Shown here: piece after piece, positions 1-55,269 of the stretch
Layout of the letters: the number at the start of each line of letters is the position of its first letter
Position numbering within the stretch: the stretch's first letter is position 1
Source of the DNA: Amphiura filiformis
Taxonomy: Eukaryota; Echinodermata; Ophiuroidea; Amphilepidida; Amphiuridae
Assembly: GCF_039555335.1 (NCBI RefSeq)
Contig: NC_092628.1
Coordinates: 78,556,713-78,620,712, forward strand
DNA length: 64,000 bases
Direction: 5' to 3'
Notes under the pieces: generated by a model
Database searches by the model: none
What the model was told of the DNA's origin: nothing
Seen by the model: only the letters and a program-made list of their open reading frames with translations
Translations under genes and position numbers: made by a program

Positions 1-88
1 CCCCTTGCCCCGCAATCGACACGCCAGGCACCGTAATTGATTTATATAATAAGGCAACTGATTTTTATTAACTTTGGTTATTTCACAG
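1..88 (+). other. Intron 3' end and splice acceptor of repeat-protein gene copy 1
   Basis: The bases before position 89 end in the pyrimidine-rich acceptor TTATTTCACAG. The same acceptor stands before copy 2 (17224-17234). In both copies the reading frame is open from just after the AG. Homology between the copies starts at about position 24 (17170 in copy 2), so the duplication breakpoint lies in this intron and copy 1's upstream exon lies outside the window. Confidence 0.55.
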
Positions 89-8826: not shown

Positions 8827-9132
8827 CCAATAAAACCAATTATATTTCCAATTTAATGTTATTTAGGACATTAGGGTTTCCCTCTACACCTTGAAGTTGA
8901 AAAAGATTTTTTATCATTTTCTAAGGGTGCCCTAGGGGTTAAAATAGCCTGACCAAAGTAACCCCTCCTTTGGGGCAACTTTGGTCAGAGACAGAATATT
9001 ACATTCCATGAAGAAAAAAAAATGATCTTCGCTGTATATGGACAAGTTGTTGTTTTTGTGACATATGGCCTCTTGTTAAATAAACCAAACGTAAAAAAAT
9101 GCTCATTTTGGTCACAAATTCATTTTACGTTA
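8827..9132 (+). mobile_element. Truncated MITE copy at the minisatellite orientation switch
   Basis: It is similar to the inside of the complete MITE at 10805-11287: the CTACACCTTGAAGTTG, GGCAACTTTGGTCAGAG and CTGTATATGGACAAG blocks appear in the same order. It lacks the left terminal inverted repeat and ends at a degenerate right end, CATTTTACG. It has an extra segment of about 50 bp near 8930-8980. Confidence 0.65.
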
Positions 9133-17169: not shown

Positions 17170-17234
17170 CCAGGCACCGTAATTGATTTATATGATAAGG
17201 CAACTGGTTATTATTAACTTTGGTTATTTCACAG

Positions 17235-20200
17235 GAGATACTCCCGCAAGCAACACGGCTACATTCATGACATGCTGAATGGGTCATTTGGGATAACACC
17301 TATTGCAAGAAAAATCTCAACAGTACGTCCCGCGAATCTTTCGGACATTAAAGGACTGAGATCATCGTCGTTGTCACTGTCTGGATTTTCGTCATCAGCC
17401 AAAGGCCCTGGATACGTGCTGAAAGGTCGTTTCGGCATAAAGTCCGCAGCAAGAAAAACCACAAAAGCAAATCATGCTAAAGCGAGTCTGTCGGATATCT
17501 ACGGACTGAAATCGTCGTCGCTGTCACTGTCGGCTTCTTTGCCCTCAACACCAGAGCAAGATTGTGTCCTGAAAGGTAGATTCGGCGTGGAACCCGCCAG
17601 ACGAAAAGTCTTCAAAGCAAGTCCAGCTAAAGCGAGTCTGTCGGATATCTACGGACTGAAATCGTCGTCGCTGTCACTGTCGGCTTCTTTGCCCTCAACA
17701 CCCGAGCAAAAAATTGTGTCCTGAAAGGTAGATTCGGCGTGGAACCCGCCAGACGAAAAGTCTTCCAAGCAAGTCCAGCTAAAGCGAGTCTGTCGGATAT
17801 CTACGGACTGAAATCGTCGTCGCTGTCACTGTCGGCTTCTTTGCCCTCAACACCCGAGCAAGATTGTGTCCTGAAAGGTAGATTCGGCGTGGAACCCGCC
17901 AGACGAAAAGTCTTCAAAGCAAGTCCAGCTAAAGCGAGTCTGTCGGATATCTACGGACTGAAATCGTCGTCGCTGTCACTGTCGGCTTCTTTGCCCTCAA
18001 CACCCGAGCAAAATTGTGTCCTGAAAGGTAGATTCGGCGTGGAACCCGCCAGACGAAAAGTCTTCCAAGCAAGTCCAGCTAAAGCGAGTCTGTCGGATAT
18101 CTACAGACTGAAATCGTCGTCGCTGTCACTGTCGGCTTCTTTGCCCTCAACACCCAAGCAAGATTGTGTCCTGAAAGGTAGATTCGGCGTGGAACCCGCC
18201 AGACGAAAAGTCTTCCAAGCAAGTCCAGCTAAAGCGAGTCTGTCGGATATCTACGGACTGAAATCGTCGTCGCTGTCACTGTCGGCTTCTTTGCCCTCAA
18301 CACCCGAGCAAAATTGTGTCCTGAAAGGTAGATTCGGCGTGGAACCCGCCAGACACGTAAAGGTCATCCAAGCAAGTCCAGCTAAAGCGAGTCTGTCGGA
18401 TATCTACGGACTGAAATCGTCGTCGCTGTCACTGTCGGCTTCTTTGCCCTCAACACCCAAGCAAGATTGTGTCCTGAAAGGTAGATTCGGCGTGGAACCC
18501 GCCAGACGACAAGTCTTCCAAGCAAGTCCAGCTAAAGCGAGTCTGTCGGATATCTACGGACTGAAATCGTCGTCGCTGTCACTGTCGGCTTCTTTGCCCT
18601 CAACACCCGAGCAAAATTGTGTCCTGAAAGGTAGATTCGGCGTGGAACCCGCCAGACGAAAAGTCTTCCAAGCAAGTCCAGCTAAAGCGAGTCTGTCGGA
18701 TATCTACGGACTGAAATCGTCGTCGCTGTCACTGTCGGCTTCTTTGCCCTCAACACCCAAGCAAGATTGTGTCCTGAAAGGTAGATTCGACGTGGAACCC
18801 GCCAGACGAAAAGTCTTCCAAGCAAGTCCAGCTAAAGCGAGTCTGTCGGATATCTACGGACTGAAATCGTCGTCGCTGTCACTGTCGGCTTCTTTGCCCT
18901 CAACACCCGAGCAAAATTGTGTCCTGAAAGGTAGATTCGGCGTGGAACCCGCCAGACGAAAAGTCTTCCAAGCAAGTCCAGCTAAAGCGAGTCTGTCGGA
19001 TATCTACGGACTGAAATCGTCGTCGCTGTCACTGTCGGCTTCTTTGCCCTCAACACCCAAGCAAGATTGTGTCCTGAAAGGTAGATTCGGCGTGGAACCC
19101 GCCAGACGAAAAGTCTTCCAAGCAAGTCCAGCTAAAGCGAGTCTGTCGGATATCTACGGACTGAAATCATCGTCGCTGTCACTGTCGGCTTCTTTGCCCT
19201 CAACACCCAAGCAAGATTATGTCCTGAAAGGTAGAGTCGGCATGGAACCTGCTAAACGCAAAATCTTCCAAGCAAGTCCAGCTAAAGCGAGTCTATCGGA
19301 TATCTACGGACTGAAATCATCGTCGCTGCAACTATCTGATTTGCCGTCATCACGCAAGCGAGTTGCATTGCCCTGAAAGGTAGATTCGGTATAAAGCCAG
19401 CTGCAAGAAAAATCACCAAAGCAAGCCCGGTTGCCCTCAAAAATAGATACGGCAGAAAGCCAGCTGCAACAAATTTCACCAAAGCAAGTCCCGCTAAAGC
19501 GAGTCTGCACGATATCTACAGAATGAAATCATCGTCGCAGCCACTGTCTGGGTTTTCGTCAAAACCAAAGCGAGTTACCATGAAAGGTAGAATCCGCATA
19601 AAGTCAGCTGCAATACTAACCAACAAAGGCAAACCAAGTCCAGCTAAAACAAGTCTGTCGGATATCTCCGGACTGAAATCATCGTCGCTGCAACTATCTG
19701 ATTTGCCGTCATCACGCAAGCGAGTTGCCCTGAAAAGTAGATTCGGCATAAAGCCAGCTGCAAGAAAAATCACCAAAGCAAATCCGGTTGCCTTCAAAAA
19801 TAGATACGGCAGAAAGCTAGCTGCAAGAAAGATCACCAAAGCAGGTTCTCCTAAAGCGAGTCTGCAAGATATATACAGAGTGAAATCATCGTCGCTATCT
19901 GGTTTTTCGTCATCACACAAGCGAGTTGCTCTGAAAGGTAGATTCGGCAAAAAATCAGCTGCAAGAAAAATCACCAAAGCAAGCCCCGCTAAACCAGTGG
20001 ATACTTACGGACTGAAACCATCGTCGCTGCCACTATCTGGTTGTTTGTCACAACGCAAGCGAGTTGCCCTGAAAGGCATATCCGGCATAAAACCCGCTGC
20101 AAGAAAAATCACCAAAGCGAGTACTGATGAAGCGAACCTGCCCGATTTCTGCGGACTGAACTCATCGTTGGTGTCACTGCCTGCTTTTTCGGCGTCACAA

Positions 20201-20653
20201 AATGATCTCGTTGCCTTGAAAGATATTTTCGGCACCAAACATGATCAACCAGCTAAAGAACCATTACACGTTGAGAACAACCGGCAAACCGATATCAACA
20301 TCAAATCTCCAACAGACCTGTCAGATGTCGTCAAGGAGGAAACCCCTCGGGAGATACTGAGTGTTGATGAGAAAGTTGAGTGGAAAGCTGTGACACACTT
20401 TAACAAGGAGCCAGCAAAATACGTATTTCAGTCAAAACATCAAGAGGATTCACTAGAAAGCCAGAGCACTTGCAGAGCACCTCACCATAGTCTCAAAAGC
20501 AAAGAATTATCTCAGATGTATCAGATTAGTCAGGAAGACATGAGTGAACTAAATCATCGAATAATTTTTCATTTGGTTTTGGTTTTTATTATCGCGTTCT
20601 TTTTCTATTACTTTTATTGGGTGTTTATGTTTTTGAGGCCATCTTTTATTTAA
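17235..20653 (+). pseudogene. Repeat-protein gene copy 2, two frameshifts, intact C-terminal anchor
   Basis: Paralogue of 89-4022 with the same acceptor (AG at 17233-17234) and the same open frame behind it; an in-frame ATG lies at 17272. The frame breaks near 17708-17713, where two extra A residues lead to TGA, and near 19361-19372, where a 5-bp insertion leads to another TGA. The three frames are 17272-17724, 17739-19376 and one ending at TAA 20651-20653, and together they cover the whole protein. About 13 units of 50 residues carry copy-specific EPARRKVFQ. The C-terminus HLVLVFIIAFFFYYFYWVF is a convincing single membrane segment with a short LRPSFI tail, so this copy shows the ancestral anchor. 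It could be a recent pseudogene, or homopolymer/repeat assembly errors could have broken a working gene; the sequence alone cannot decide. Confidence 0.65.
17475..19330 (+). repeat. 150-bp tandem array in copy 2 with 300-bp dimer pattern
   Basis: The units alternate between PEQNC and PKQDC versions over most of 18000-19080, so the effective repeat is a 300-bp dimer. One unit (near 18350) has an extra codon. Confidence 0.85.
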
Positions 20654-22028: not shown

Positions 22029-23455
22029 ACCTGCTGATATTGGTATGGATAAAGTAGCTATCTGATGCTGTTGGTTGGTGTTGTATCTACTGCTGATATT
22101 GGTATTGACGAAGTAGCTGTCTATTGCTGATATTGGTATTGACGAAGTAGCTATCTACTGCTGATATTGGTATTGATAAAGTAGCTATCTACTGCCAATA
22201 TTGGTATTGATGTATCTATCTCCTGCTGATATCAACATTGATAAAGTAGCTGTCTACTGATATGGCTATTGAAGGAATAGATATCTACTGCTGGTATTGG
22301 TATTGGAAACATATTACTGATATTGTGCTTGATGGAGTAGCTATCTATATACTGCTGATATCGGTATGGATAAAGTAGCTATCTATTGCTGTTGGTATTG
22401 TATCTACTCCTGATATTGGTATTGACGAACTACTGCTGATATCGGTATTGATAAAGTATCTATCTACTGCCGATATTGGTATTGATGTAGCTATCTATAC
22501 TGCTGATATTGGTATTGATAAAGTAGTTATCTACTATTGATATGGCTATTGATGAAGTAGCCATCTAGTGCTCATAGTAGCTATCTTCTGGTATTGGTAT
22601 TGATGGTGTTGCTATCTACTACTGATATCTGTATTGATGAAATATATATATATATAACTATTTATATTGCTGATATAGGTATGAATAAAGTATCTACTGC
22701 GGATATTGGTATTGACGAAGTAGCTATCTACTGCTGATATGATGAAGTAGCTGTCTATAATTGCTGTTGGTATTTTATCTACTGCTGATATTCGTATTGA
22801 TGAAGTAGCTATCTACTGCTGATATTGGTATTTATAAAGTAGTTATCTACTGCTGGTATGGCTATTGAGGAGGTAGCTTAAATGAAGTAGCCATCTAGTG
22901 CTCATAGTAGCTATCTTCTGGTATTGGTATTGATGGTGTATAGCTACTGCTGATATCTGTATTGATGAAGTAATTTCTTTTGCTGACGTTTGTATTGATC
23001 AAGTAGCTATCTACTTCTGATGTTGATATTGTATCTACTGATATATGTACTGGTATTGATAAAGTAGCATATGTTGTTGCTGATACTGGTATTGATAAAG
23101 TAGCTATATACTACTGCTAATATGGTGTTGATGAGTAGCGGATATTGGTATTAACAAAGTAGCTATCTACTGCTGATATTGGTATTGATAAAATAGCTAT
23201 CTACTGCCGATATTGGTATTGATGTATCTATCTGCTGCTGATATTAACATTGATAAAGTATCTATCTACTGATATGGCTATTGAAGGAATAGATATCTAC
23301 TGCTGATATTGGTATTGGAGACATATTAATGATATTGATGAAGTAGCTATCTACTGCTGATATTGGTATTGATAAAGTAGCTATCTCCTGCCGATATTGG
23401 TATTAATGTATATCTCCTGCTGATATTGACATTGATAAAGTAGCTATCTACTGAT
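22029..23455 (+). repeat. 34-bp minisatellite, forward orientation (copy 2)
   Basis: Monomers of the type TGATATTGGTATTGATGAAG followed by TAGCTATCTACTGC. The first units are nearly those of 8054-8826, so the duplication reaches into the array. Confidence 0.9.
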
Positions 23456-25121: not shown

Positions 25122-26121
25122 GTCTATCGCTGTTGGTATTGTATCTACTGCGGAGATGATACTTGTATTGATGAAGTAGCTATCTACTGCTGATACTGGT
25201 CTTGATGAAGTAGCTATCTACTGACGACAGTGGTATTGATGAAGTAGCTATCTACTGCTGCATGATATTGGTATTGACGTAGTAGCTAACTACTGCTGAT
25301 ACTGGTAGGCCTATTGATGAATTTGCTATCTACTGCTGATACTGGTATTGATGAAGTAGCTATCTACTGCTGATATTGGTATTGACGTAGTAGCTATCTA
25401 CTGCTGATACTGGTAGGCCTATTGATGGAGTAGCTATCACTGCTGATACTAGTATTGATGAAGTAGCTATATATACGGCTGATAATGGTATTGATGAATA
25501 GCTATCTAGGCTACTGATGATATTGGTATTGATGAAGTAACTATCTACTGCTGATACTGGTATTGATGAAGTAGCCATCTACTGCTGATATTGGTATTGA
25601 CGTAGTAGCTATCAACTGCTGATACTGGTAGGCATATTGATGAAGTAGCTATCTTCTGCTGATATTGGTATTGATAAAGTATCTATCTACTGCCGATAGT
25701 GGTATTAATTAAGTAGTTTTCTACTATACTGATATGGCTATTGATGAAGTAGCCATCTAGTGCTGATATAGGTATTGCTGTTGGTATTTTATCTACTGCT
25801 GATATTGGTATTGATGAAGTAGCTATCTATACTGCTGATATTGGTATTGATAAAGTAGTTATCTACTGCTGATATGGCCATTGAGGAGGTAGCTTAAATG
25901 AGGTAACTATCTAGTGCTCATAGTCATAGTAGCTATCTCTTCTGGTATTGGTATTGATGGTGTATAGCTACTGCTGATATCTGTATTGATGAAGTAATTA
26001 TCTATTGCTGACGTTTGTATTGATCAAGTAGCTATCTACGTCTGATGTTGATATTGTATCTACTGATATACTGGTATTGATAAAGTAGCATATGCTGATA
26101 CTGGTATTGATAAAGTAGCTG
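25122..26121 (+). repeat. 34-bp minisatellite, continued
   Basis: Forward units, some with GGCCTA insertions as in the reverse array at 9.1-10.5 kb. Confidence 0.9.
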
Positions 26122-29530: not shown

Positions 29531-30059
29531 GGGGATGGGCTGGGTTTTCATTTGTATCCATCAATTTTGTTTGTGGTAGTCATAGTACTTCCATTGGCCT
29601 CCAAACACCCATTATTGATCTGATATATTGCTTCCTTCTTGAATGCCTGTCTTTAACAAGTTTGGATGGTCACTTTCTCTTTGAATTTCAATTAACAATA
29701 CATTCCACATTTATTTATGAAATGTTTGTAATTTAAACCAAAATTCATGACTTTTCAAGGCAGTACAGGACACGCATTATGAAAGCACAAGCCTTACGAA
29801 ACTACAACGCTGAAAGTGGTTTTGGAATAACATAATTATTTTTGATTTAGCAAACACATAACACATTTTATGATTTAGAATTAATTATTTGTGAAGATTT
29901 CATGATAGTGACCCAATAGTGATGTCAAAAATAGACATATCACATCCAGTCTCCTCCCTGAACCTTTCCATGATTTTTGTGCCTTTTTCAAAAAAAAAAA
30001 TATGTCATGAATTTTGCCGACATATTGCAACACTGGTGAATATATTTATAACCCTGATG
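29531..30059. other. Stretch without recognised gene
   Basis: AT-rich flank of the LTR element. A 71-codon ORF from 29521 shows no domain. Confidence 0.5.
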
Positions 30060-30063
30060 ATAG

Positions 30064-32629
30064 TGTAAAAGAATGGGCGTTCCGAGCGGTCGGCGCGTGG
30101 GCTGGTTATTTAAAACCAAATTTAGATTGAGGCAAAAATAATCATTACAAATATTTACACTCTAGAAATTGGCTAGTTTTAGCGTGGTTTTACACCAAAA
30201 CATTTTCGTGCACATAGACAAATATTAAAACAAAGATAAATCCAAAATGTAAACAGTGTCATATCTGAAGTAAAATTTTGGATCACTTCAAAGCTGCAAA
30301 ACTATTTTGAACAGACATTAAGATAAACAAACAAAACAAACCTTTTCTTTCCACAAACAAGACAAAAGTATATATCACAAGTTCATATCACAAATAAAAG
30401 CAATTTATAGTCCGATTTTTCAGTCAAAAGTCAGTATAAAATGAATTCTGTATATTTTATAGTTCAGCATGTTATTAACTGGTCTCTGGCATATATTTAT
30501 AGTGGCGAAGATGAAAATCGTGAAACAAATGTCCTCCAGACCGGAATAGAGTTTTTAGATTCTGATGATACCCGTTGTGGTTCAGGTTCACGATGATAGT
30601 CATTTGCCTTAGAAGAAATATAATTGCACGGAGTACGAGAGGAGATGGGCATCCCAGATAGCGGAGTTGATATGTCCAAATTCAGTTGTTGTGATGAATC
30701 CATGGGCCTACATGTACACTTGTCTACAGCTGGGGTGGGTGAAGTGCTTAGAACTTCAACTGGTGAACTTGATATTGAGAGTTGTATATTTTTGCACACT
30801 GATGATCCATTTGGAGGAATTGTTTTGGCATGTTTAGTGGGTAATTTACTACCAGTGACACAATTGCCATCACGTCCAGTTATATTTACTGCTTCTGAAG
30901 TCCTTCCTGAAACACTGATAATGTCAAAGACAATAATTTCACCTTGTCCAACACTGGCACGCTTGTGTCTAGGGTTCGGTTTAGCAATTCCTGATTTATG
31001 AATAAAAATGTCTTCTGCATTGTCTGTTCTGGTAACAAATCCGTACCCTTTAGTCACGTTAAACCATTTCACAGTTCCCTCAACATTTGTTGCAATTATT
31101 GATACAGGTGTATTATCAGGTGAGGTAGAAACATTTGAAGTCGAAGAAACATTCACTGTCTTTGGATTCTTGCATTTGCAAGGCTGCTGATGCACACGTT
31201 TATTTTCCAGTTCTTTAACTTTGCTTTCCAGTTGCTGTAATCTCTTTAATAAAGTCTCCATTGTAAAAACTGATGTTGATATAAAACGATACTACTTGGT
31301 GATAAAATGAAGAATAATACAGATGACACAGAGCTATTTGTTGACAACAATATATTTATTTTATATGAAAAGTCCTCAAATGCAAAGTGGTGGAGGTGGT
31401 CTAGCAAGGAGCTGGCATGTTGGAGACCAGAGCTAGACTGACAAAACATCCCAGGTCAAAAACAAAGGGAGCATTATGCTAATTATTAAATCTCTACTAC
31501 GAATTTAATTATCACCAAAACACACAATAACAATAGGCACTGAGTGGCATTGACCTTGTTAAAGAGATGGGTGACCTATGCAAATAAGAGCAAACATGAA
31601 ACTGGAAAGTGGAAAGGTCAACTTACATTACATAATCAGTTTCCAGGCAGAGAACATTATTATGGGATAGCACATGTCTTAAAGCATGACTGGGGTATTG
31701 ATGTAAACAAACCTTGACTGAACTTGGAACAACTCATGCATTTTTGAGGAAAGAAACACAAATAATTTGCAATACAAGTAAACTTTCAAAATGAAAACAA
31801 CATTTGTCACTTCCAACACATTTATGAGGAAGTATACCTTGATTAATAAGATGACACAAAATAATAGATAAATTAAGATCAGGTGATGACCTTAATAAAA
31901 AGTTTCTAAATTTAGAAATGTTGTCACTTTGTAGAACATTTTTAAGTCCTACCATAATCATGTCTTTCATAATGACATATCCAAACAACAAAACTAATAA
32001 ACTTTCAAAATATCAAAAACAAAACAATACATAATCAAATTCTGCTGATTGCTATGAGTATTAATTAAATAAATTGGTTGTGTACACAATTAGATCAATA
32101 TTTTTAATGATCCTCAACCAAAAACAATCATAAACCTTTCAGCCAAACAAAATAATATTAATTAGTGACCAAAGTTGATGACCTTACGAATTTACACTAA
32201 GGGCGCATACTACCAAAAACTTTTCAGGGCACATAACACTATAATAACATAAAAATAATACACATCAAGAAACAGCTGATCGTTAACAATGCCGGGTATT
32301 ACATGATTGCACAAATGGTGGATTTGACACCATGCGAAAAGATAAATAAACAGGAAAATTTGGCAAGTACAAGACATGTCCTTTAGCAGCCCTATTAATT
32401 TTGCGGGAAGAGATCATTAAGATTTTTCAGGCAGACCACACAGAAAATGACCAAGTTTAATGATTGGCGGAGCTTACTTCTCCCTAAACACAGGCTAGTC
32501 CTCTTTAAAAATCATACTGCAGTCACACTCATGCAGTTCCTTTAATTCGTTATCTAAATTAACCGTCAAAATTCCGTGCGAAAAAATACCCTACATTTGT
32601 CTTAATTACTCAGCCCAAATTTTGTTACA
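30064..32629 (-). repeat. 3' LTR (2566 bp), minus orientation
   Basis: On the minus strand it begins TGTAACAAAATTTGGGCTG and ends CCATTCTTTTACA. It contains the cold-shock ORF at 30497-31261. A TATAAAATAAATATA-like box lies about 100 nt before the ORF start (about 31351-31366). Confidence 0.85.
30497..31261 (-). CDS. Coiled-coil plus cold-shock (Y-box type) domain protein, in the 3' LTR
   Basis: 254 codons from ATG at 31259-31261. Residues 1-22 form a heptad-like coiled coil (METLLKRLQQLESKVKELEN). A CKC motif lies at 28-30. A cold-shock domain spans about residues 60-130: EGTVKWFNVTKGYGFVTR carries RNP1 (KGYGFV) and DIFIHKS carries RNP2; KPNPRHKRASVGQGE and EAVNITG match the loop and last strands of metazoan Y-box proteins. 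The remaining 120 residues are Ser/Pro-rich with a second C-x-C (KCTC) and no domain I recognise. Y-box domains bind single-stranded RNA and DNA; binding of the element's RNA is my inference. The whole ORF is inside an LTR, so the same protein is encoded twice. Alternative: a captured host gene no longer translated, but an intact frame in both copies argues for recent function. Confidence 0.85.
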   Translation of the reverse strand: METLLKRLQQLESKVKELENKRVHQQPCKCKNPKTVNVSSTSNVSTSPDNTPVSIIATNVEGTVKWFNVTKGYGFVTRTDNAEDIFIHKSGIAKPNPRHKRASVGQGEIIVFDIISVSGRTSEAVNITGRDGNCVTGSKLPTKHAKTIPPNGSSVCKNIQLSISSSPVEVLSTSPTPAVDKCTCRPMDSSQQLNLDISTPLSGMPISSRTPCNYISSKANDYHREPEPQRVSSESKNSIPVWRTFVSRFSSSPL

Positions 32630-32645
32630 GAGCCCCCACCGAAGA
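32630..32645 (-). promoter_or_regulatory. Candidate polypurine tract
   Basis: On the minus strand GGTGGGGGCTC directly precedes the 3' LTR start TGTAACA. It is G-rich but interrupted by pyrimidines, so it is a weak match. Confidence 0.4.
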
Positions 32646-33639
32646 CGATGCCGCCCCGGCATAAAGGCTGACATCAACAAAAAGAGACAAAATTTGGGCT
32701 GCTACACATCCTGTAACTTAAAAAAAATGGGTTAAGCAAAACAAGAGTTAACGATCAGTGTTATGACATAATAATGATTAATACAAGTACCGGCGCCGAT
32801 ACACAATAATAAATGAGCACATACAAACATGTTGCATAAGCATAAGTATAGTTGCTTCATAACACAAAAGTGAGTCTATCTTTAGCTCAGTTGCATTTAC
32901 ATTGTCTCTCATGATCTCCCACATGTATGCCCCATGTCCTTTGGTTACCGCTACTGTCTTTCAAACTTTTCACTGCCATAGGCTTACTATATCTTCCACT
33001 TCTTTTAACTTTTTCACTCCTGTACCACGTCGACAACATTTCTTCACAATGTACCCATGATCTGCCATAGCAAATAACCCTTCCTTGCGTGACGGGCGGC
33101 CCCGGCCGGTGACCGCATGCGATCACTCTCCAATACAATACGAATACCGGTACTTCTAGTGTCCTTTTTACTTTTTAGTATCAATCCATGGCCAGGGATC
33201 CACGGTATTGATTATCCACTCTTCGATGCCAACATTTGTGATTGTGGTACGTAGCACACACTCTTAAGTCTTCTTCTGAAGTGCAGATGCGACAATGTTT
33301 AAACTATTTATTGTTCGTCATCTGACAAAGCTATCTAGCAGGCTCACTATTAGATCTATTACTGGCTCAGAACCATTTTTACCAAAGTCAATTTCTTCAG
33401 CACAAGGCCTCCAGTATTTCAAAGAACTTGCTCCCTAAATGGCAACAATTTACGGAGTCCTGCAGTATTGGCGTACAATCTCTCTGCTACCAGCGGTACA
33501 TGAGAATATATACTTTTTTTAAAAACCAATGTCACTTCATGCAATGCAAAACAACATGTTCATTATTTGACAGTACTTTCACAAACATTTTTCAATCCAA
33601 ACACATGCATAAAATCCAACATACCAAAACCTCCAAATC

Positions 33640-33657
33640 ATCCCACTCCTGACACCA
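33640..33657 (-). promoter_or_regulatory. Primer-binding site, tRNA-Leu type
   Basis: The plus strand reads ATCCCACTCCTGACACCA, the 3' end of an animal tRNA-Leu including CCA. Its complement is therefore an 18-nt primer-binding site, three bases from the 5' LTR (33661). This is the expected place in a minus-strand LTR element. Confidence 0.85.
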
Positions 33658-33660
33658 TTT

Positions 33661-36224
33661 TGTAAAAGAATGGGCGTTCCGAGCGGTCGGCGCGTGGGCT
33701 GGTTATTTAAAACCAAATTTAGATTGAGGCAAAAATAATCATTACAAATATTTACACTCTAGAAATTGGCTAGTTTTAGCGTGGTTTTACACCAAAACAT
33801 TTTCGTGCACATAGACAAATATTAAAACAAAGATAAATCCAAAATGTAAACAGTGTCATATCTGAAGTAAAATTTTGGATCACTTCAAAGCTGCAAAACT
33901 ATTTTGAACAGACATTAAGATAAACAAACAAAACAAACCTTTTCTTTCCACAAACAAGACAAAAGTATATATCACAAGTTCATATCACAAATAAAAGCAA
34001 TTTATAGTCCGATTTTTCAGTCAAAAGTCAGTATAAAAATGAATTCTGTATATTTTATAGTTCAGCATGTTATTAACTGGTCTCTGGCATATATTTATAG
34101 TGGCGAAGATGAAAATCGTGAAACAAATGTCCTCCAGACCGGAATAGAGTTTTTAGATTCTGATGATACCCGTTGTGGTTCAGGTTCACGATGATAGTCA
34201 TTTGCCTTAGAAGAAATATAATTGCACGGAGTACGAGAGGAGATGGGCATCCCAGATAGCGGAGTTGATATGTCCAAATTCAGTTGTTGTGATGAATCCA
34301 TGGGCCTACATGTACACTTGTCTACAGCTGGGGTGGGTGAAGTGCTTAGAACTTCAACTGGTGAACTTGATATTGAGAGTTGTATATTTTTGCACACTGA
34401 TGATCCATTTGGAGGAATTGTTTTGGCATGTTTAGTGGGTAATTTACTACCAGTGACACAATTGCCATCACGTCCAGTTATATTTACTGCTTCTGAAGTC
34501 CTTCCTGAAACACTGATAATGTCAAAGACAATAATTTCACCTTGTCCAACACTGGCACGCTTGTGTCTAGGGTTCGGTTTAGCAATTCCTGATTTATGAA
34601 TAAAAATGTCTTCTGCATTGTCTGTTCTGGTAACAAATCCGTACCCTTTAGTCACGTTAAACCATTTCACAGTTCCCTCAACATTTGTTGCAATTATTGA
34701 TACAGGTGTATTATCAGGTGAGGTAGAAACATTTGAAGTCGAAGAAACATTCACTGTCTTTGGATTCTTGCATTTGCAAGGCTGCTGATGCACAAGTTTA
34801 TTTTCCAGTTCTTTAACTTTGCTTTCCAGTTGCTGTAATCTCTTTAATAAAGTCTCCATTGTAAAAACTGATGTTGATATAAAACGATACTACTTGGTGA
34901 TAAAATGAAGAATAATACAGATGACACAGAGCTATTTGTTGACAACAATATATTTATTTTATATGAAAAGTCCTCAAATGCAAAGTGGTGGAGGTGGTCT
35001 AGCAAGGAGCTGGCATGTTGGAGACCAGAGCTAGACTGACAAAACATCCCAGGTCAAAAACAAAGGGAGCATTATGCTAATTATTAAATCTCTACTACGA
35101 ATTTAATTATCACCAAAACACACAATAACAATAGGCACTGAGTGGCATTGACCTTGTTAAAGAGATGGGTGACCTATGCAAATAAGAGCAAACATGAAAC
35201 TGGAAAGTGGAAAGGTCAACTTACATTACATAATCAGTTTCAGGCAGAGAACATTATTATGGGATAGCACATGTCTTAAAGCATGACTGGGGTATTGATG
35301 TAAACAAACCTTGACTGAACTTGGAACAACTCATGCATTTTTGAGGAAAGAAACACAAATAATTTGCAATACAAGTAAACTTTCAAAATGAAAACAACAT
35401 TTGTCACTTCCAACACATTTATGAGGAAGTATACCTTGATTAATAAGATGACACAAAATAATAGATAAATTAAGATCAGGTGATGACCTTAATAAAAAGT
35501 TTCTAAATTTAGAAATGTTGTCACTTTGTAGAACATTTTAAGTCCTACCATAATCATGTCTTTCATAATGACATATCCAAACAACAAAACTAATAAACTT
35601 TCAAAATATCAAAAACAAAACAATACATAATCAAATTCTGCTGATTGCTATGAGTATTAATTAAATAAATTGGTTGTGTACACAATTAGATCAATATTTT
35701 TAATGATCCTCAACCAAAAACAATCATAAACCTTTCAGCCAAACAAAATAATATTAATTAGTGACCAAAGTTGATGACCTTACGAATTTACACTAAGGGC
35801 GCATACTACCAAAAACTTTTCAGGGCACATAACACTATAATAACATAAAAATAATACACATCAAGAAACAGCTGATCGTTAACAATGCGGGTATTACATG
35901 ATTGCACAAATGGTGGATTTGACACCATGCGAAAAGATAAATAAACAGGAAAATTTGGCAAGTACAAGACATGTCCTTTAGCAGCCCTATTAATTTTGCG
36001 GGAAGAGATCATTAAGATTTTTCAGGCAGACCACACAGAAAATGACCAAGTTTAATGATTGGCGGAGCTTACTTCTCCCTAAACACAGGCTAGTCCTCTT
36101 TAAAAATCATACTGCAGTCACACTCATGCAGTTCCTTTAATTCGTTATCTAAATTAACCGTCAAAATTCCGTGCGAAAAAATACCCTACATTTGTCTTAA
36201 TTACTCAGCCCAAATTTTGTTACA
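33661..36224 (-). repeat. 5' LTR (2564 bp), minus orientation
   Basis: It differs from the other LTR by one substitution (34795 against 31197) and four single-base indels (for example CCAGGCAG against CAGGCAG near 35238 and 31644). It contains the second cold-shock ORF. Confidence 0.85.
34095..34859 (-). CDS. Coiled-coil plus cold-shock (Y-box type) domain protein, in the 5' LTR
   Basis: It is identical to the product of 30497-31261 except residue 22, Leu here and Arg there; this is also the only base substitution found between the LTRs. ATG at 34857-34859, stop at 34095-34097, with 1365 bp of LTR between the element's 5' end and the ATG. As the 5' LTR copy it would be transcribed either from a U3 promoter or from a TATA-like box about 100 nt upstream (about 34949-34964). 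The other copy lies 3.6 kb away on the same strand, so a genome annotation may list the two as a tandem gene pair. Confidence 0.85.
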   Translation of the reverse strand: METLLKRLQQLESKVKELENKLVHQQPCKCKNPKTVNVSSTSNVSTSPDNTPVSIIATNVEGTVKWFNVTKGYGFVTRTDNAEDIFIHKSGIAKPNPRHKRASVGQGEIIVFDIISVSGRTSEAVNITGRDGNCVTGSKLPTKHAKTIPPNGSSVCKNIQLSISSSPVEVLSTSPTPAVDKCTCRPMDSSQQLNLDISTPLSGMPISSRTPCNYISSKANDYHREPEPQRVSSESKNSIPVWRTFVSRFSSSPL

Positions 36225-36228
36225 ATAG

Positions 36229-36626
36229 TCATGATACCTGGTAAGAGACAGTAAAACATGCAATAATTACACTGGCTAATGTTTAATTTCTCTCTTGAAC
36301 TGTTTATTATTATAGCATCATAATAGAACACTTAAAATTGAAATACTAAAAGTTACATAATTTCTCGTTTACATACAATAATAGCAATCATGTACTTGTG
36401 CAATTATTAGAACCACTCAACCATCTGTTTTTATGCATGTCACAATATACATACACATGCAATTTACTAACAATATTTTTCTTTGTTCCCATCAATCAAA
36501 TTTGGTTTGGTACACAAACTCAGTCAAGTAATAGATAACTTTATTTTTCTATAAATGCTATTTAATGTAACTGGTATGTTTTCAATTGACTATGATTTAT
36601 ATTTTCATTTAATTTATTATATTTAA
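36229..36626. other. Stretch without recognised gene
   Basis: AT-rich sequence between the LTR element and a MITE. Nothing coding seen. Confidence 0.5.
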
Positions 36627-36971
36627 GGGGTACCACACCTGCCCAATTTATGCCTATTTTTTGCATTTTTCTCAAAATTATAGAGCATTGGTGACAAGTA
36701 AGATATGTATATTATAGGGGCAAGGACTACAACTGCTACACTGGAAATTTTATTTCAGCACAGACAACAGATGTGGAGTTACAGTCACAAATGAGGGACA
36801 ACCGATATTTTATCAATAAATCAATAACTACTTGCCTTGAGTTGCTGAATTTTCAGTGCAGTAGTTGTAGTCCTTGCCCCTATAATATACATATCTTACT
36901 TGTCACCAATGCGCTATAATTTTCGAGAAAAACACAAAAATAGGCAAAATGGCTAGGGGTGTAGTACCCCC
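36627..36971. mobile_element. TTAA-flanked MITE (piggyBac-type target), family 1
   Basis: TTAA lies at 36623-36626 and 36972-36975. The inverted ends GGGGTACCACACC and GGTGTAGTACCCCC extend over about 110 bp each, including GGGGCAAGGACTACAACTGC. No transposase. Related copies are at 50050 and 50627-50878. Confidence 0.75.
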
Positions 36972-36975
36972 TTAA

Positions 36976-37754
36976 AGGGACTGTGCATTCTCAGAAATGC
37001 ATAATGGGCTAGTATTCAGTTGAAATCCACAGGGAGTATATTTTTCAAATGTAACTGCCTAACTGGTCAGGGTTTATCATTTTGAAACCCATACTCCCCT
37101 CTGTATTATGGCTTTACCTATATCTTCCACAGCTGGAGTGAGTATTTCAAATGAAGTTACCCAATGGTTTATTCTATTCAAAACTCATACTCCCTCTTTG
37201 AAAGACTTTAGCTAAATCTTCCACAGGGGTGGTGTGGATTTTAAATGGAATGGCCCAAAAGTTACTAATCCAAGATAAAAGTATACATTTTGGAAAGGAA
37301 ATTATCTAAATATAAATACAAATTTGGGGTGAAAAGAACAATTTTGAAGAAAATAAGAAAAAACCTCATGATTTTGCCTAAAATTGTTTGGAACACACTA
37401 TAGGAAGGAAAAATCCAAAATTTGGATTTAGTGTTTTTTGTAACCTAGACTCGCTTAGGCCTTATTTTGAATTATTGACCAAATAAGACGAAAATTCAAA
37501 AATTCAAAAATAAGACTAATATCCAAATCATGAAAAACCGTTCCATGAATGGAGTGTCTAATTACAAAAAAAAAAAAATGAAATCCAAATTTGGGTACAG
37601 TGTGTTCCAAATAATTTAAGGCAAAACAATGTGCTTTTTTGAAGTTTCTTCAAAAAATACTTTTGCATAACAAAAATATATACTTGCATTAAATTTTGTT
37701 TAATTTAAAGTTACAGCACTTTTAATTAATGCATTTCTGAGAATACACAGTCCC
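36976..37754. mobile_element. TTAA-flanked MITE, family 2, sharing a TTAA with its neighbour
   Basis: The ends AGGGACTGTGCATTCTCAG and CTGAGAATACACAGTCCC are inverted. TTAA lies at 36972-36975 and 37755-37758. Inside, GTTTGGAACACACTAT and a partial complement GTGTGTTCCAAAT flank an AT-rich middle. Confidence 0.65.
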
Positions 37755-42839: not shown

Positions 42840-45800
42840 AACACCGCAACTTTGTCACAGGTGGGATAGGATAGTAAAGATGATTTGATTTAAACAATAC
42901 AACATTCCCTTGTATACCACAACTTTGTCACAGGAGGGACAGGACACTAGAAATAATTTACATTATAGCACAATAGATAGTGTCCTGTTCCACCCATGAT
43001 AAAGTTGTAGTATACATGGGAGTGTTGTATAGCTCAATGGAAATCATCTTTGTGCTCTGTTCCACCCATGATAAAGTTGTAGTATACATGGGAGTGTTGT
43101 ATAGCTCAATGGAAATCATCTTTGTACTCTGTTCCACCCATGATAAAGTTGTAGTATACATGGGAGTGTTGTATAGCTCAATGGAAATCATCTTTGTGCT
43201 CTGTTCCACCCATGATAAAGTTGTAGTATACATGGGAGTGTTGTATAGCTCAATGGAAATCATCTTTGTACTCTGTTCCACCCATGATAAAGTTGTAGTA
43301 TACATGGGAGTGTTGTATAGCTCAATGGAAATCATCTTTGTGCTCTGTTCCACCCATGATAAAGTTGTAGTATACATGGGAGTGTTGTATAGCTCAATGG
43401 AAATCATCTTTGTACTCTGTTCCACCCATGATAAAGTTGTAGTATACATGGGAGTGTTGTATAGCTCAATGGAAATCATCTTTGTGCTCTGTTCCACCCA
43501 TGATAAAGTTGTAGTATACATGGGAGTGTTGTATAGCTCAATGGAAATCATCTTTGTACTCTGTTCCACCCATGATAAAGTTGTAGTATACATGGGAGTG
43601 TTGTATAGCTCAATGGAAATCATCTTTGTGCTCTGTTCCACCCATGATAAAGTTGTAGTATACATGGGAGTGTTGTATAGCTCAATGGAAATCATCTTTG
43701 TACTCTGTTCCACCCATGATAAAGTTGTAGTATACATGGGAGTGTTGTATAGCTCAATGGAAATCATCTTTGTGCTCTGTTCCACCCATGATAAAGTTGT
43801 AGTATACATGGGAGTGTTGTATAGCTCAATGGAAATCATCTATAGTACTCTGTTCCACCCATGATAAAGTTGTAGTATGCATGGGAGTGTTGAATAGCTC
43901 AATGGAAATCATCTTTGTGCTCTGTTCCACCCATGATAAAGTTGTAGTATACATGGGAGTGTTGTATAGCTCAATGGAAATCATCTTTGTGCTCTGTTCC
44001 ACCCATGATAAAGTTGTAGTATACATGGGAGTGTTGTATAGCTCAATGGAAATCATCTTTGTGCTCTGTTCCACCCATGATAAAGTTGTAGTATACATGG
44101 GAGTGTTGTATAGCTCAATGGAAATCATCTTTGTACTCTGTTCCACCCATGATAAAGTTGTAGTATACATGGGAGTGTTGTATAGCTCAATGGAAATCAT
44201 CTTTGTGCTCTGTTCCACCCATGATAAAGTTGTAGTATACATGGGAGTGTTGTATAGCTCAATGGAAATCATCTTTGTACTCTGTTCCACCCATGATAAA
44301 GTTGTAGTATACATGGGAGTGTTGTATAGCTCAATGGAAATCATCTTTGTGCTCTGTTCCACCCATGATAAAGTTGTAGTATACATGGGAGTGTTGTATA
44401 GCTCAATGGAAATCATCTATAGTACTCTGTTCCACCCATGATAAAGTTGTAGTATACATGGGAGTGTTGAATAGCTCAATGGAAATCATCTTTGTGCTCT
44501 GTTCCACCCATGTTAAAGTTGTAGTATACATGGGAGTGTTGTATAGCTCAATGGAAATCATCTACAGTACTCTGTTCCACCCATGATAAAGTTGTAGTAT
44601 ACATGGGAGTGTTGTATAGCTCAATGGAAATCATCTACAGTACTCTGTTCCACCCATGATAAAGTTGTAGTATACATGGGAGTGTTGTATAGCTCAATGG
44701 AAATCATCTTTGTACTCTGTTCCACCCATGATAAAGTTGTAGTATACATGGGAGTGTTGTATAGCTCAATAGAAATCATCTTTGTACTCTGTTCCACCCA
44801 TGATAAAGTTGTAGTATACATGGGAGTGTTGAATAGCTCAATGGAAATCATCTTTGTGCTCTGTTCCACCCATGATAAAGTTGTAGTATACATGGGAGTG
44901 TTGTATAGCACAATGGAAATCATCTATAGTACTCTGTTCCACCCGTGATAAAGTTGTAGCATACATGGGAGTGTTGTATAGCTCAATGGAAATCATCTAT
45001 AGTACTCTGTTCCACCCATGATAAAGTTGTAGTATACATGGGAGTGTTGTATAGCTCAATGGAAATCATCTTTGTGCTCTGTTCCACCCATGATAAAGTT
45101 GTAGTATACATGGGAGGGTTGTATGATAAAGTTGTAGTATACATGGGAGGGTTGTATGATAAAGTTGTAGTATACATGGGAGTGTTGTATAGCTCAATGG
45201 AAATCATCTTTGTGCTCTGTTCCATCCATGATAAAGTTGTAGTATACATGGGAGTGTTGTATAGCTGAATGGAAATCATCTATAGTACACTGTTCCACCC
45301 ATGATAAAGTTGTAGTATACATGGGAGTGTTGTATAGCTCAATGGAAATCATCTTTGTGCTCTGTTCCACCTGTGATAAAGTTGCAGCCTAGTATACATG
45401 GGAATGTTGTATAGCACAGTGGAAATCATCAATAGTACTCTGTTCCACCTGTAATAAAGTTGTAGTATACATGGGAGTGTTGTCTAACACAATGGAAATC
45501 ATCTATAGTGTTCAGTTCCACCTGTGATAAAGTTGTAGTATACATGGGAGTGTTGTATATCACAATGGAAATCATCTATAATGCTCCGCTCCACCTGTGA
45601 CAAAGTTGTAGTATACATGGGAGTGTTGTATAGCACAATGGAAATCATCTATAGTGCTCTGTTCCACCTGTGATAAAGTTGTAGTATACATGGGAGTGTT
45701 GTATTGCACAATGGAAATCATCTATAGTACTCTGTTCCACCTGTGATAAAAGTTGTAGTATACATGGGAATGTTGTATAGCACAATGGAAATCATCTATA

Positions 45801-46310: not shown

Positions 46311-47855
46311 GTGTCCGAGATAGTAACTCAGGGCCCGACTGTAACTCGGGCCCGACTTAGTAACTCGGGTCCGAGATAGTAACTCAGGGCCCGACTTAGT
46401 AACCCGGGGCCTCGACTCGGGACCCGAGATAGTAACTCAGGGTCCAAGTAACTCGGGCCCCGACTTAGTAACTCGATATCTGAGTTAGTAACTCGGGCCC
46501 GGATTTAGTATCTTGGGTCCAAGATAGGCCGAGATAGTATCTCAGACTTAGTAACTCTGGGTCCAAGATAGTACTCGGGGTCCGAGATAGTAACTTGGGG
46601 CCTCGACTTAGTAACTCAGGGTCTAAGACAGTAACTCGGGGCCTCGACTTAGTAACTCGGGCCTCGACTTAGTAACTCGGGGTCCGAGATAGTAACTCGG
46701 GCCCCGACTTACTCGGGGGAGATAGTAACCTCGACTTAATAACTTGGGGTCTGAAACAGTAACACGGACCGCGAGATAGTAACTCGGGTCTGAGATAGTA
46801 ATTCAGGGCCCCGACCTAGTAACTCGGGTCCGAGATAGTAATTGGGGCCTTGACTTAGTAACTCGGGGTCCGAGATAGTAACTTGGGGCCTCAACTTAGT
46901 AACTTGGTATCCGAGATAGTAACACGGACCCTATATAGTAACTCGGGGGCCGAGATAGTAATTCGGGCCCCGGACTTTATAACTCAGGGTCCGGGATAGT
47001 AACTCGGGGTCAGAGATAGTAAGTCGGGGCCTCGACTTAGTAACTCGGGGTCTGAGATAGTAACACTGACCCCGAGATAGTAACTCCGGGTCCGAGATAG
47101 TAACTTGGGGCCTCGACTTAATAACTTGGGGTCCGAAACAGTAACACGGACCCCGAGATAGTAACTCGGGTCTGAGATAGTAATTCAGGGCCCCGACTTA
47201 GTAACTCGGGGTACGCGGTAGTAACTCGGGGTCCGAGATAGTAATTCGGGGCCTCGACTTAGTAACTTGGGGTCTGAGATAGTAACTCGACCCCGACTTA
47301 GTAACTCGGGGTCTGAGATAGTAACTCGGGGCCTCGACTTAGTAACTCGGGGTCCGTGATAGTAACTCGGGGCCTCGACTTATTAACACGGACTGAGATA
47401 GTAACACGCACCCAGAGATTGTAACTCGGGGTCTGAGATAGTAACTCGGGGCCCCGACTTAGTAATTAGGGGTTAGAGATAGTAACTCGGGGCCTCAACT
47501 TAGTAACTTGGGGTCTGAGATAGTAACACAGACCCCAAGATAGTAATCCGGGGTCCGAGATAGTAACTCAGGCCTCGACTTAGTAACTCGGGTCTGAAAT
47601 AATAACACGGACCCTGATATTGTAACTTGGGGTCCAAGATAGTAACTCGGGCCCCGACGTAGTAACTGGGGGTCAGAGATAGTAACTCGGGCCTCGACTT
47701 AGTACCTCGGGTCTGAGATAGTAACTTGGGGCCTCAACTTAGTAACTTGGTATCTGAGATAGTAACACAGACCCAAGATAGGAACTCGGGGTCCGAGATA
47801 GTAATCGGGCCCCGACTTAGTAACTCGGGGATAGTAACTTGGGGCCCGAGATACT
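46311..47855 (+). repeat. GC-rich ~41-bp minisatellite, left array
   Basis: Alternating half-units AGTAACTCGGGGTCCGAGAT and AGTAACTCGGGGCCTCGACT give a dimer of about 41 bp. Extensive G-run length variation. Confidence 0.9.
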
Positions 47856-49927
47856 AATTGGGGGTCCTGAATTACTATCTCAGACCCCGAGTTACTATCT
47901 CGGGGTCCGTGTTACTGTTTCAGACCCCGAGTTATTAAGTCGAGGCCCTGTTACTATCTCGGACCCCGAGTTAATAAGTCGGGCCCGAAGTTACTATCTC
48001 GACCCCGAGTTAATAAGTCAGGGCCCGAAGTTACTATCTCAGACCCGAGTTACTATCTCGGGTCAGTGTTACTATCTCAGACCCGAGTTACTAAGTCGAA
48101 GCCCTGTTACTATCTCGACCCGAGTTACTATCTCGGGTCAGTGTTACTATCTCAGACTCCGAAGTTACTAAGTCGAGGCCCAGAAGTTACTGTCTCGTAC
48201 CGAGTTACTAAGTTGGGCCCCAAGTTACTAACTCGGACCCTGAGTTACTATCTCGTGGTCCGTGCTACTATCTCAGACCCCGAGTTATTAAGTTGAGGCC
48301 CCGAGTTAGTATCTCGGACCCCGTGTTATTATATCTCTGACCCCAAGTTATTAAGTCGGAACCCCGAGTTACTATCTAAGGGCCCTGTGTTACTAAGTTG
48401 GGGCCCGAGTTACTATATCAGACCCTGAATTAGTATCTTGGGACCCTGAGCTACTATCTCGGACCCCCAATTAGTATCTCGGGGTCCCAAGTTATTATCT
48501 TGGACTCCGAGTTACTAAGTCGGGGCCCCGACTTACTATCTCTGACCCTGAGTTACCGTACTATCCCGGACCCTGAGTTATAAAGTCGGGGCCCGATTAT
48601 TATCTCGGACCCCGAGTTACTATCTCGGTCTGTGTTACTATCTCAGATACCAAGTTACTAAGTTGAGGCCCCAAGTTACTATCTCGACCCCGAGTTACTA
48701 AGTCGAGGCCCGAGTTACTATCTCTGACCGCCAGTTACTACGTCCGGGGCCCCGAGTTACTATCTTGGACCCCGAAGTTACAATCTCCGGGTCCGTGTTA
48801 TTATCTCAGACCCGAGTTACTAAGTCGACGCTCGAGTTACTATCTCGGACCCGGTTACTATCTCGGGTCCGTGTTACTATCTCAGACCCCAAGTTACTAA
48901 GTTGAGGCCCCGAGTTACTATCTCTAACCCCCAATTACTAAGTCGGGCCCGAAGTTACTATCTCGGACCCCGAGTTACAATCTCGGGTGCGTGTTACTAT
49001 CTCAGCCCCGAGTTAATAAGTCGCGGCCCCGAGTTACTATCACCGACCCCGAGTTACTAAGTCGAGGCCCGGTTTACTATCTCAGACCCGAGTTACTAAG
49101 TCGGGCCGAAGTTACTATTTCGGACCCGAGTTACTAAGTTGGGGCCCTAAGTTACTAAGTTAGGGCCCCAAGTTAGTAACTCAGACCCGAGTTACTATCT
49201 CATTGTCCGTGTTACTATCTCAGACCCCGAGTTACTAAGTTGAGGCCCCGAGTTACTATCTCGGGACCCGAAGTTACTAAGTTGGGGCCCCCAAGTTACT
49301 AACTCAGACCCCGAGTTACTATCTCGTTGTCCGTGTTACTATCTCAGACCCCGAGTTACTAAGTTGAGGCCCCGATTTACTATCTCGGACCCCGAGTTAT
49401 TATATCTCTGACCCCAAGATATTAAGTCGGAACCCTGAGTTACTATCTAAGGGCCCGTGTTATTAAGTCGGGGCCCGAGTTACTATATCAGACCCTGAAT
49501 TAGTATCTCGGGACCTTGAGCTACTATCTCGGATCCCAAAGTAGTATCTCGGGGCCCCGAATTACTATCTCGGACTCCGAAGTTACTAAGTCGGGCCCCG
49601 ACTTACTATCTCGGACCCTGAGTTACTATCCCGGACCCCGAGTTATAAAGTCGGGGCCTGATTATATCTCGGACCCCGAGTTACTATCTTGGGGTCCGTG
49701 TTACTATTTCAGCTACCAAGTTACTAAGTTGAGGCCCCAAGTTACTATCTCAGACCCGAAAGTTACTAAGTCGAGGTCCGTGTTACTATCTCAGACCCGA
49801 GTTACTAAGTCGAGGCCCCAAGTTACTATCTCAGACCCAGAGTTACTAAGTCGGGGCCCGAGTTACTTAAAGTCGAGTTACTATCTCGGGGTCCAAGTTA
49901 CTGTTTCAGACCCCGAGTTACTAAGTA
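47856..49927 (-). repeat. GC-rich minisatellite, right array, inverted
   Basis: The same half-units appear as reverse complement (CCGAGTTACTATCTCGGACC, CCGAGTTACTAAGTCGGGGC). Within it, about 48300-48620 and 49385-49690 are similar, so larger blocks have been duplicated. ORFs here (47839-48171, 49516-49932) are repeat artefacts. Confidence 0.9.
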
Positions 49928-50049
49928 ATTAAGGGCCCAGGGTGTAGACATCACCCTGGGTGTAGACATAATTATTGCACAGTCCCTATAGTATTGTGTT
50001 GTCGTGGATACATGGTAGTTGATAAATTACTCGATCAAATCATTTGATA

Positions 50050-50411
50050 ACGGGTACTACACCTGCCCAATTTTGTGCCTATTTTTACATTTTTCTCAAA
50101 AATTATAGAGCATTGGTGACAAGTAAGATATGTATATTATAGGGGCAAGGACTACAACTGCTACACTGGAAATTTTTATTTCAGCACAGACAGCAGTTGT
50201 GGAGTTACAGTCAAAAATTAGGGAAAACCAATATTTGATCAATAAATCAATAACTACTTGCCTTGAGTTGCTGAATTTTCAGTGCAGTAGTTATAGTCCT
50301 TGTCTCTATAATATACATATCTAGGCCCTATATCTTACTTGTCACCAATGCACTATGATTTTTGAGAAAAAACACAAAAATAAGCAAAAATTGGCTAGGG
50401 TGTAGTACCCC
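50050..50411. mobile_element. TTAA-type MITE, family 1, second copy
   Basis: It resembles 36627-36971. The left end CGGGTACTACACCTGCCC follows a degenerate TTAA; the right end is followed by TTAA (50412-50415). Confidence 0.65.
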
Positions 50412-51094
50412 TTAAACATAATAGATCCCACACAATTTAAAACCAACATAACCCAACATCTACAAGAAATCTATATACTAAAATTTGCATGCATGCGCAT
50501 ATCAACCTAACCATTTTACTCCTCTAGGACTGTTGGGCAGTATCAAGATCAAGATGATGTGCAAATTTCAAGTTAGACTTCATCATGTTCTTGCTGTCAT
50601 TGACATATTTGTAGAGACGACTAGAGTACACTGGAAATTTTTATTTCAGCACAGACAGCAGTTGTGGAGTTACAGTCAAAAATTAGGGAAAACCAATATT
50701 TGATCAATAAATCAATAACTACTTGCCTTGAGTTGCTGAATTTTCAGTGCAGTAGTTATAGTCCTTGTCTCTATAATATACACATCTAGGCCCTATATCT
50801 TACATGTCACCAATGCACTATGATTTTTGAGAAAAACACAAAAATAAGCAAAAAATTGGCTAGGGGTGTAGTACCCCCTTAAACATAATAGATCCCACAC
50901 AATTTAAAACCAACATAACCCAACATCTACAAGAAATCTATAGACTAAAATTTGCATGCATGCGCATATCAACCTAACCGTTTTACTCCTCTAGGACTGT
51001 TGGGCAGTATCAAGATCAAGATGATGTGCAAATTCCAAGTTAGACTTCATCATGTTCTTGCTGTCATTGACATATTTGTAGAGACGACTAGAGT
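50162..51094 (+). repeat. Tandem duplication of ~466 bp (half a MITE plus flank)
   Basis: TACACTGGAAATTTTTATTT starts both units (50162 and 50627) and GACGACTAGAGT ends both. Each unit holds the right half of the MITE and about 215 bp of flank. They differ at a few positions only. Confidence 0.85.
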
Positions 51095-55154: not shown

Positions 55155-55237
55155 ACATATAGCACATAATATGGCGTTACATATTTTACTCTCCTTGAAG
55201 CTTGATCATGTTGATCGGTGCTAATTGTTCTTTATTC

Positions 55238-55251
55238 ATTTTTTCCATGCA
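55238..55251 (+). other. Splice acceptor before the GPCR coding exon
   Basis: A pyrimidine tract ending CATGCAG leaves an 18-nt 5' UTR before ATG 55270. It implies a non-coding upstream exon. Confidence 0.5.
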
Positions 55252-55269
55252 GATTCGGCACTCTTTACC

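Follow-up and report, generated by a model that had tools for sequence, protein, structure and literature searches.

The locus raises the question of whether two near-identical open reading frames (ORFs) for a cold-shock-domain protein, lying 3.6 kb apart in the window (the whole 64-kb stretch of DNA that was analysed), are a duplicated host gene or part of a mobile element. The earlier note had placed each gene wholly within a long terminal repeat (LTR) bearing TG...CA ends, a 4-bp ATAG target-site duplication and a tRNA-Leu-type primer site. Alignment reproduced the coordinates exactly, and the ends, duplication and primer site were all found as described (Table 1). The two direct repeats are 99.8% identical over 2567 aligned columns, with one substitution and four single-base indels. 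On the plus strand they begin and end as TGTAAAAG...TTGTTACA, and ATAG flanks both on the outside. The locus is an LTR retrotransposon with a cold-shock gene inside its LTR. Because the LTRs differ by one substitution, the insertion is young. The window holds no further copy beyond this single locus.

Table 1. Features of the element and its LTR-borne ORFs, in window coordinates.
Feature	Position	Length	Strand	Basis or remark
Whole element	30064-36224	6161 bp	minus	LTR retrotransposon insertion
5' LTR	33661-36224	2564 bp	minus	repeat alignment
3' LTR	30064-32629	2566 bp	minus	repeat alignment
Internal region	32630-33660	1031 bp	minus	
Target-site duplication ATAG, left	30060-30063		.	
Target-site duplication ATAG, right	36225-36228		.	
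Primer binding site	33640-33657		minus	18/18 to tRNA-Leu(CAG) 3' end, 3 nt from 5' LTR
Polypurine-tract-like GGTGGGGG	32633-32640		minus	CTC between tract and 3' LTR; atypical
15-nt inverted copy of LTR start	32687-32701		plus	pairs with 32611-32625
TATAAA, candidate core promoter	34958-34963		minus	98 nt 5' of ORF start
Y-box-type cold-shock-domain ORF, 5' LTR	34095-34859	254 aa + stop	minus	
Y-box-type cold-shock-domain ORF, 3' LTR	30497-31261	254 aa + stop	minus	

The primer site reads TGGTGTCAGGAGTGGGAT on the minus strand (33657-33640) and is the sole match in the window when up to 3 mismatches are allowed (0.02 expected). No tRNA gene was found in the window by ARAGORN. A reverse primer published for human tRNA-Leu(CAG) begins with exactly this 18-mer (PMC7229842). 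Neither the DNA patterns of the primer site nor those of the LTR start had any match in the viral contigs or in the genome contigs, which are prokaryotic only. The purine tract near the 3' LTR, GGTGGGGG, is short and interrupted, and is spanned by a stem formed between the inverted copy of the LTR start and its partner (z -3.72). The internal region holds no recognisable gag or pol, as none of the three overlapping ORFs of at least 70 aa has a Pfam match at E <=1; the description of the element as gag-less is borne out. Neither reverse transcriptase (RT) nor integrase was found in the element, which lacks the gag and pol of an autonomous element. A search of Rfam for ribozyme or tRNA-like sequence over 29900-36400 gave no matches at E <=1. 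A sigma-70 scan returned 12 sites against 11.2 expected and is uninformative in a eukaryote. Another LTR ORF (35806-36021) has a VP1_VP3 Pfam match at E 0.016, below the cut-off.

The cold-shock ORF runs in the sense of the element in both LTRs. The sole LTR substitution falls within it and alters a residue, so that the copies differ only at residue 22 (L in the 5' LTR, R in the 3' LTR). None of 1000 dinucleotide-shuffled LTRs contained an ATG-initiated ORF of at least 254 aa (longest 154, mean 74). The start context is ACAATGG, and ATG is absent from the 98 nt between TATAAA and the ORF, against 32 occurrences in the 1261 nt before TATAAA. The LTR 3' of the ORF contains neither AATAAA nor ATTAAA, and one CCAATC site, about the chance expectation, was the only Y-box DNA motif in the LTR.

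The protein consists of an N-terminal helix, a cold-shock domain (CSD) and a Ser/Thr-rich tail. Both ORF copies match Pfam CSD (E 1.9e-14 and 1.8e-14); weak matches to OB_RNB, TMCCDC2 and fn3_3 fall below the cut-off. Among PDB sequences the best match is human YB-1 (E 2e-23; 45 of 92 residues identical, i.e., 49% CSD identity), and the best 8 of 41 are all Y-box proteins (E 2.3e-23 to 1.8e-20; next 4.1e-11). With a predicted structure, the top 13 Foldseek matches are YB-1 and YBX2 chains, mostly RNA- or DNA-bound; a first model, built without an alignment, had a mean pLDDT of 37 and failed beyond the N-terminal helix. By sequence similarity the domain is a Y-box-type CSD, and the same label in the earlier note agrees with the top PDB and Foldseek matches. 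The aromatic positions that look conserved in the PDB alignment are presumably those that bind nucleic acid. The element protein shares with YB-1 and YBX2 the CSD type, an NPR-containing insertion and the predicted fold, and differs from them in its N-terminal helix. The tail of YB-1 has alternating basic and acidic clusters, whereas the 114-residue tail of the element protein (32 S/T, 6 R, 6 K, 8 D/E) lacks this Y-box feature. An origin from a bacterial cold-shock protein (CSP) was ruled out, since Y-box proteins outscore bacterial CSPs by far and the six viral-contig CSPs that were aligned have no NPR insertion. Viral relatives were limited to short regions of local similarity with small cold-shock domains, at seven loci among 11 matched stretches, none of them close; the loci L005 and L006 were inspected more closely. 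The six aligned CSPs come from these seven loci, L006 having been left out. A phage collection gave three records with 40.3% identity over 26% of the protein, and the top match of a BFVD fold search was phage CspC (E 8.1e-4).

On balance, we lean towards the view that this is a young, non-autonomous LTR retrotransposon with an intronless coding copy of a Y-box-type cold-shock protein absorbed into its LTR. Gag, RT and integrase would be supplied in trans by an autonomous element primed by tRNA-Leu. The ORF may have entered one LTR by retrocopy insertion or template switching, and would then have been duplicated to the second through normal LTR synthesis. With the gene inside the LTR, every insertion brings two copies of it along, and one would remain even in a solo LTR. 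The CSD mRNA would be driven by the LTR's own promoter, and it is somewhat more likely than not that the gene is expressed and that selection on the element maintains it. In the predicted division of labour, the helix would serve self-association and the CSD would bind single-stranded RNA or DNA. The protein might bind element RNA and so favour its stability, its translation or its entry into foreign particles; alternatively, it might bind LTR DNA. That it acts on the element RNA or the LTR is plausible, though a little short of probable, and the RNA chaperone or packaging factor suggested in the earlier note would be one such role. The cited parts of two studies report that YB-1 supports HIV replication (PMC6040738) and is present on HTLV-1 LTRs (PMC10487795). 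These reports speak for the preferred reading, as do the LTR anatomy, the length of the ORF against shuffled LTRs, the domain matches, the start context with its ATG-free leader and the rarity of stop-free ORFs after neutral drift to 49% CSD identity. Against it stand the single locus, the residue-changing LTR substitution, the lack of AATAAA or ATTAAA 3' of the ORF and the atypical purine tract. More tentatively, the LTR could be a mobile, self-contained Y-box gene, with which a gag-less family spreads an RNA-binding protein. The protein would coat the element RNA and steer it into the particles of the autonomous element (or activate its own LTR), and solo LTRs would keep producing it, making the family a parasite of a parasite with its own trans-acting protein.

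A different reading, which we consider rather unlikely, is that a host Y-box-type mRNA was caught in the LTR shortly before insertion, has no role in the element and is intact merely because it is recent. The youth of the insertion is in keeping with this reading, and a review describes how template switching can bring cellular mRNAs into such elements, with Bs1 as the documented case (PMC5408686). In simulations of neutral drift, with indels left uncounted, only 2 of 2000 ORFs were stop-free at 49% CSD identity. Because drift to this divergence nearly always gives stops, the frame was under constraint for most of its history, before or after capture. Drift to 95, 90 and 80% identity left 814, 437 and 104 of 2000 ORFs intact, so that the data also allow for a host gene under constraint that was captured recently and has no role for the element, 5 to 10% drift after capture fitting the intact frame. 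However, such a capture requires a host gene that was beforehand at only 49% CSD identity to YB-1, and the Y-box domains of animals are well conserved. Nor would random capture need the clean start context, the sense orientation and the ATG-free leader.

It is likewise rather unlikely, in our estimate, that the element is a remnant of a larger autonomous family in which the CSD gene is an LTR accessory gene, as in complex retroviruses, and that gag-pol was lost from the present copy. Such accessory genes are known in MMTV, and the primer site is present and the internal region short; the lack of any Pfam match in the three internal ORFs argues against it. Retroelements with captured RNA-acting ORFs do exist, as two reports describe (PMC5408684, PMC9289625). 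This reading may hold alongside that of a non-autonomous element with an absorbed gene. That a host cold-shock gene was simply duplicated in tandem, or that the assembly is at fault, is suggested by the closely spaced gene pair and by sequencing-error-like indels (two of four in A or T runs, two CC to C), but is extremely improbable because TG/CA, the ATAG duplication and the primer site all fall at the ends of the repeats; the earlier note's claim that the gene is LTR and not a tandem duplicate stands on this coincidence.

LTRs are normally regulatory DNA, and MMTV sag lies wholly, and lentiviral nef partly, within the LTR. The present element likewise has a protein gene there; MMTV and the lentiviruses, in contrast, are coding-competent retroviruses with unrelated proteins, whereas this element is gag-pol-less and encodes a Y-box-type CSD. 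If the preferred reading of an absorbed Y-box-type copy is true, an LTR protein gene would outlive the loss of internal DNA, double with each insertion and keep its promoter attached. With its own version of YB-1, such an element would make it possible to test by what means the RNA of non-autonomous LTR elements is packaged or protected. No published element with a Y-box-type protein gene in its LTR was found among the literature matches listed. One close comparison is with Cassandra, Helenus and Ajax, which are TRIMs whose LTRs contain sequences from small-RNA genes (PMC10886601). As described in the cited parts of that paper, they too are non-autonomous, have a primer site, carry a foreign gene sequence in both LTRs and are proposed to have acquired it in one LTR before copying to the other; animal Helenus also has 4-bp duplications. 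They differ in having a Pol III promoter sequence and short LTRs, in contrast to the protein gene and 2.56 kb LTRs here. TRIMs are defined as elements <1000 bp with short terminal repeats (PMC6934838), and at 6161 bp, with LTRs of 2.56 kb, the present element lies outside this definition. Captured RNA-acting genes have also been reported in LTR elements, namely an AlkB m6A demethylase in an orchid Ty3/Gypsy element (PMC9289625) and ORF3s in bdelloid elements (PMC5408684). Going by the abstracts, these are extra ORFs of gag-pol elements, with no LTR location mentioned for any of them. Kinship with Steamer through the primer tRNA is unsupported, since the Mytilus Steamer-like element is described, in the cited passage, with a primer site for tRNA-Asn and 185-bp LTRs (PMC11046912). 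In three of the six literature matches to the primer-site 18-mer, the sequence is the same tRNA-Leu primer (two) or a sea urchin morpholino (one).

The two direct repeats described in the earlier note were confirmed at exactly 30064-32629 and 33661-36224 and are 99.8% identical over an alignment of 2567 columns. They differ by a single substitution (31197/34795) and four 1-base indels, of which two sit within homopolymer stretches of A or T and the others change CC to C. All four indels fall outside the ORF, which is expected by chance about 1 time in 4 (the ORF occupies 765 of 2566 LTR bases), so their placement is no evidence of selection. The anatomy is also as claimed: both repeats begin with TG and end with CA, ATAG flanks the insertion on either side, and a primer site of tRNA-Leu type follows the 5' LTR. 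The primer site is the sole match at ≤3 mismatches in the window (0.02 expected) and is identical to the first 18 nt of a reverse primer for human tRNA-Leu(CAG) in an excerpt of PMC7229842; the same primer is also present in PMC11201714. The 18-mer occurs too in a sea urchin morpholino (PMC6160229), which is taken for coincidence. Directly ahead of the 3' LTR stands GGTGGGGG followed by CTC, which would be acceptable as a polypurine tract, yet an atypical one. Because of the target-site duplication, the primer site and the ends, the element is, on sequence grounds, one mobilised by the LTR route, and the insertion is young, the LTRs differing by one substitution.

Features of the element and of the rest of the window
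Feature	Position	Strand	Remark
5' LTR	36224-33661	-	minus-strand reading
Primer site TGGTGTCAGGAGTGGGAT	33657-33640	-	3 nt past 5' LTR end
ORF in 5' LTR	34095-34859	-	254 aa
ORF in 3' LTR	30497-31261	-	254 aa
Inverted repeat, LTR start	32611-32625		15 nt, perfect
Inverted repeat, inverted copy	32687-32701		
Repeat ORF	72-4022		1316 aa, mostly 50-aa repeats (150-bp units)
Repeat ORF, second copy	17218-20653		~17 kb off, split between frames
34-bp tandem repeats	9131-10575, 22084-23453, 25157-26120		related
Right-flank repeat	36624-36976		
Copy of right-flank repeat	50048-50416		89% identity, tandem arrangement
72-bp satellite	42985-45797		38.9 copies
Array of 20/41-bp units	46315-49926		
GPCR ORF	55225-56496		rhodopsin class, uninterrupted

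The protein gene reported inside the LTR was likewise found, with one ORF per LTR in sense orientation relative to the element. The longest ATG ORF in 1000 dinucleotide-shuffled LTRs was 154 aa (mean 74). The two copies match the Pfam cold-shock domain (CSD) at E = 1.8e-14 and 1.9e-14. Among 41 PDB sequence matches, the top eight are Y-box proteins (E 2.3e-23 to 1.8e-20), followed by a match at 4.1e-11 and with Lin28 at 1.6e-4; identity to human YB-1 is 45/92 aligned residues. In a structure model for which the window protein was aligned to six cold-shock proteins from viral contigs, block means of pLDDT lie between 77 and 95 across residues 51-130 and are 94 and 96 for a predicted helix at residues 2-23; the overall mean is 65.2, with most of the tail unmodelled. 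Foldseek placed YB-1 and YBX2 chains at ranks 1-13 (best E 2.7e-9). The YB-1 tail consists of charged clusters, unlike the 114-residue tail here, which has 32 S/T and only 12 R/K. Animal Y-box genes contain introns, and the intronless state of the ORF suggests derivation from an mRNA copy.

Neutral substitution was simulated from the present ORF (n = 2000, indels not counted). Stop-free frames numbered 814, 437 and 104 at 95, 90 and 80% identity, and 2 at 49% CSD identity, so the frame would have been maintained through most of the divergence from YB-1-like sequences if all of it is assigned to this lineage. The simulation does not separate selection as a host gene from selection on the element.

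A TATAAA lies 98 nt 5' of the ORF start (context ACAATGG). The leader between them holds no ATG, which is only suggestive because about 2.6 would be expected at the upstream density (32 in 1261 nt). Transcription from near 34930 would make this the first ORF on the element RNA. Within the LTR 3' of the ORF, TATAAA occurs three times and neither AATAAA nor ATTAAA was found. A sigma-70 scan carries no information for a eukaryote. The arms of the inverted repeat enclose the polypurine-like tract as well as the start of the 3' LTR; a 110-nt RNA containing them has a stable predicted fold of -39.2 kcal/mol (z -3.72), equalled by 0/200 shuffles. The hairpin may mark the RNA 3' end for packaging or priming.

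The internal region is 1031 bp long and is overlapped by three stop-to-stop ORFs of at least 70 aa, for all of which Pfam gave no match at E ≤1. The element is thus without recognisable gag or pol, in line with its earlier description as gag-less. A loose motif scan detected no convincing RT in the window, and a search for a second copy there gave only five weak matches (best E 0.003 across 45 bp). Given movement by the LTR route and no such genes in the element, gag, RT and integrase must have been supplied by another element. By analogy, the gene may have entered one LTR and then been copied to the other, the path proposed for Cassandra in an excerpt of PMC10886601; capture of cellular mRNA by template switching is the subject of a review (PMC5408686). 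Among the matches listed (titles and abstract starts of open-licence papers), none describes an LTR, or an element bounded by LTRs, with a cold-shock or Y-box gene. Binding to RNA or to the LTR would be a reasonable role for the protein by analogy with YB-1, which is reported to support HIV replication (PMC6040738) and to sit on HTLV-1 LTRs (PMC10487795); the function of the element is one that we infer. A protein gene in the LTR of an element without any other gene is an unusual anatomy, and the element, known from one locus, is classed as a new form of non-autonomous LTR retrotransposon.

Elsewhere in the window, Pfam matches of the 1316-aa ORF to EAR, PLA2G12 and adenovirus E3A look like repeat artefacts. 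The GPCR ORF matches 7tm_1 at E = 7.9e-47. The satellite has long open frames on both strands, the 20/41-bp array forms a 3.6-kb near-palindrome with halves in opposite directions, and one of the 34-bp arrays is inverted relative to the other two.
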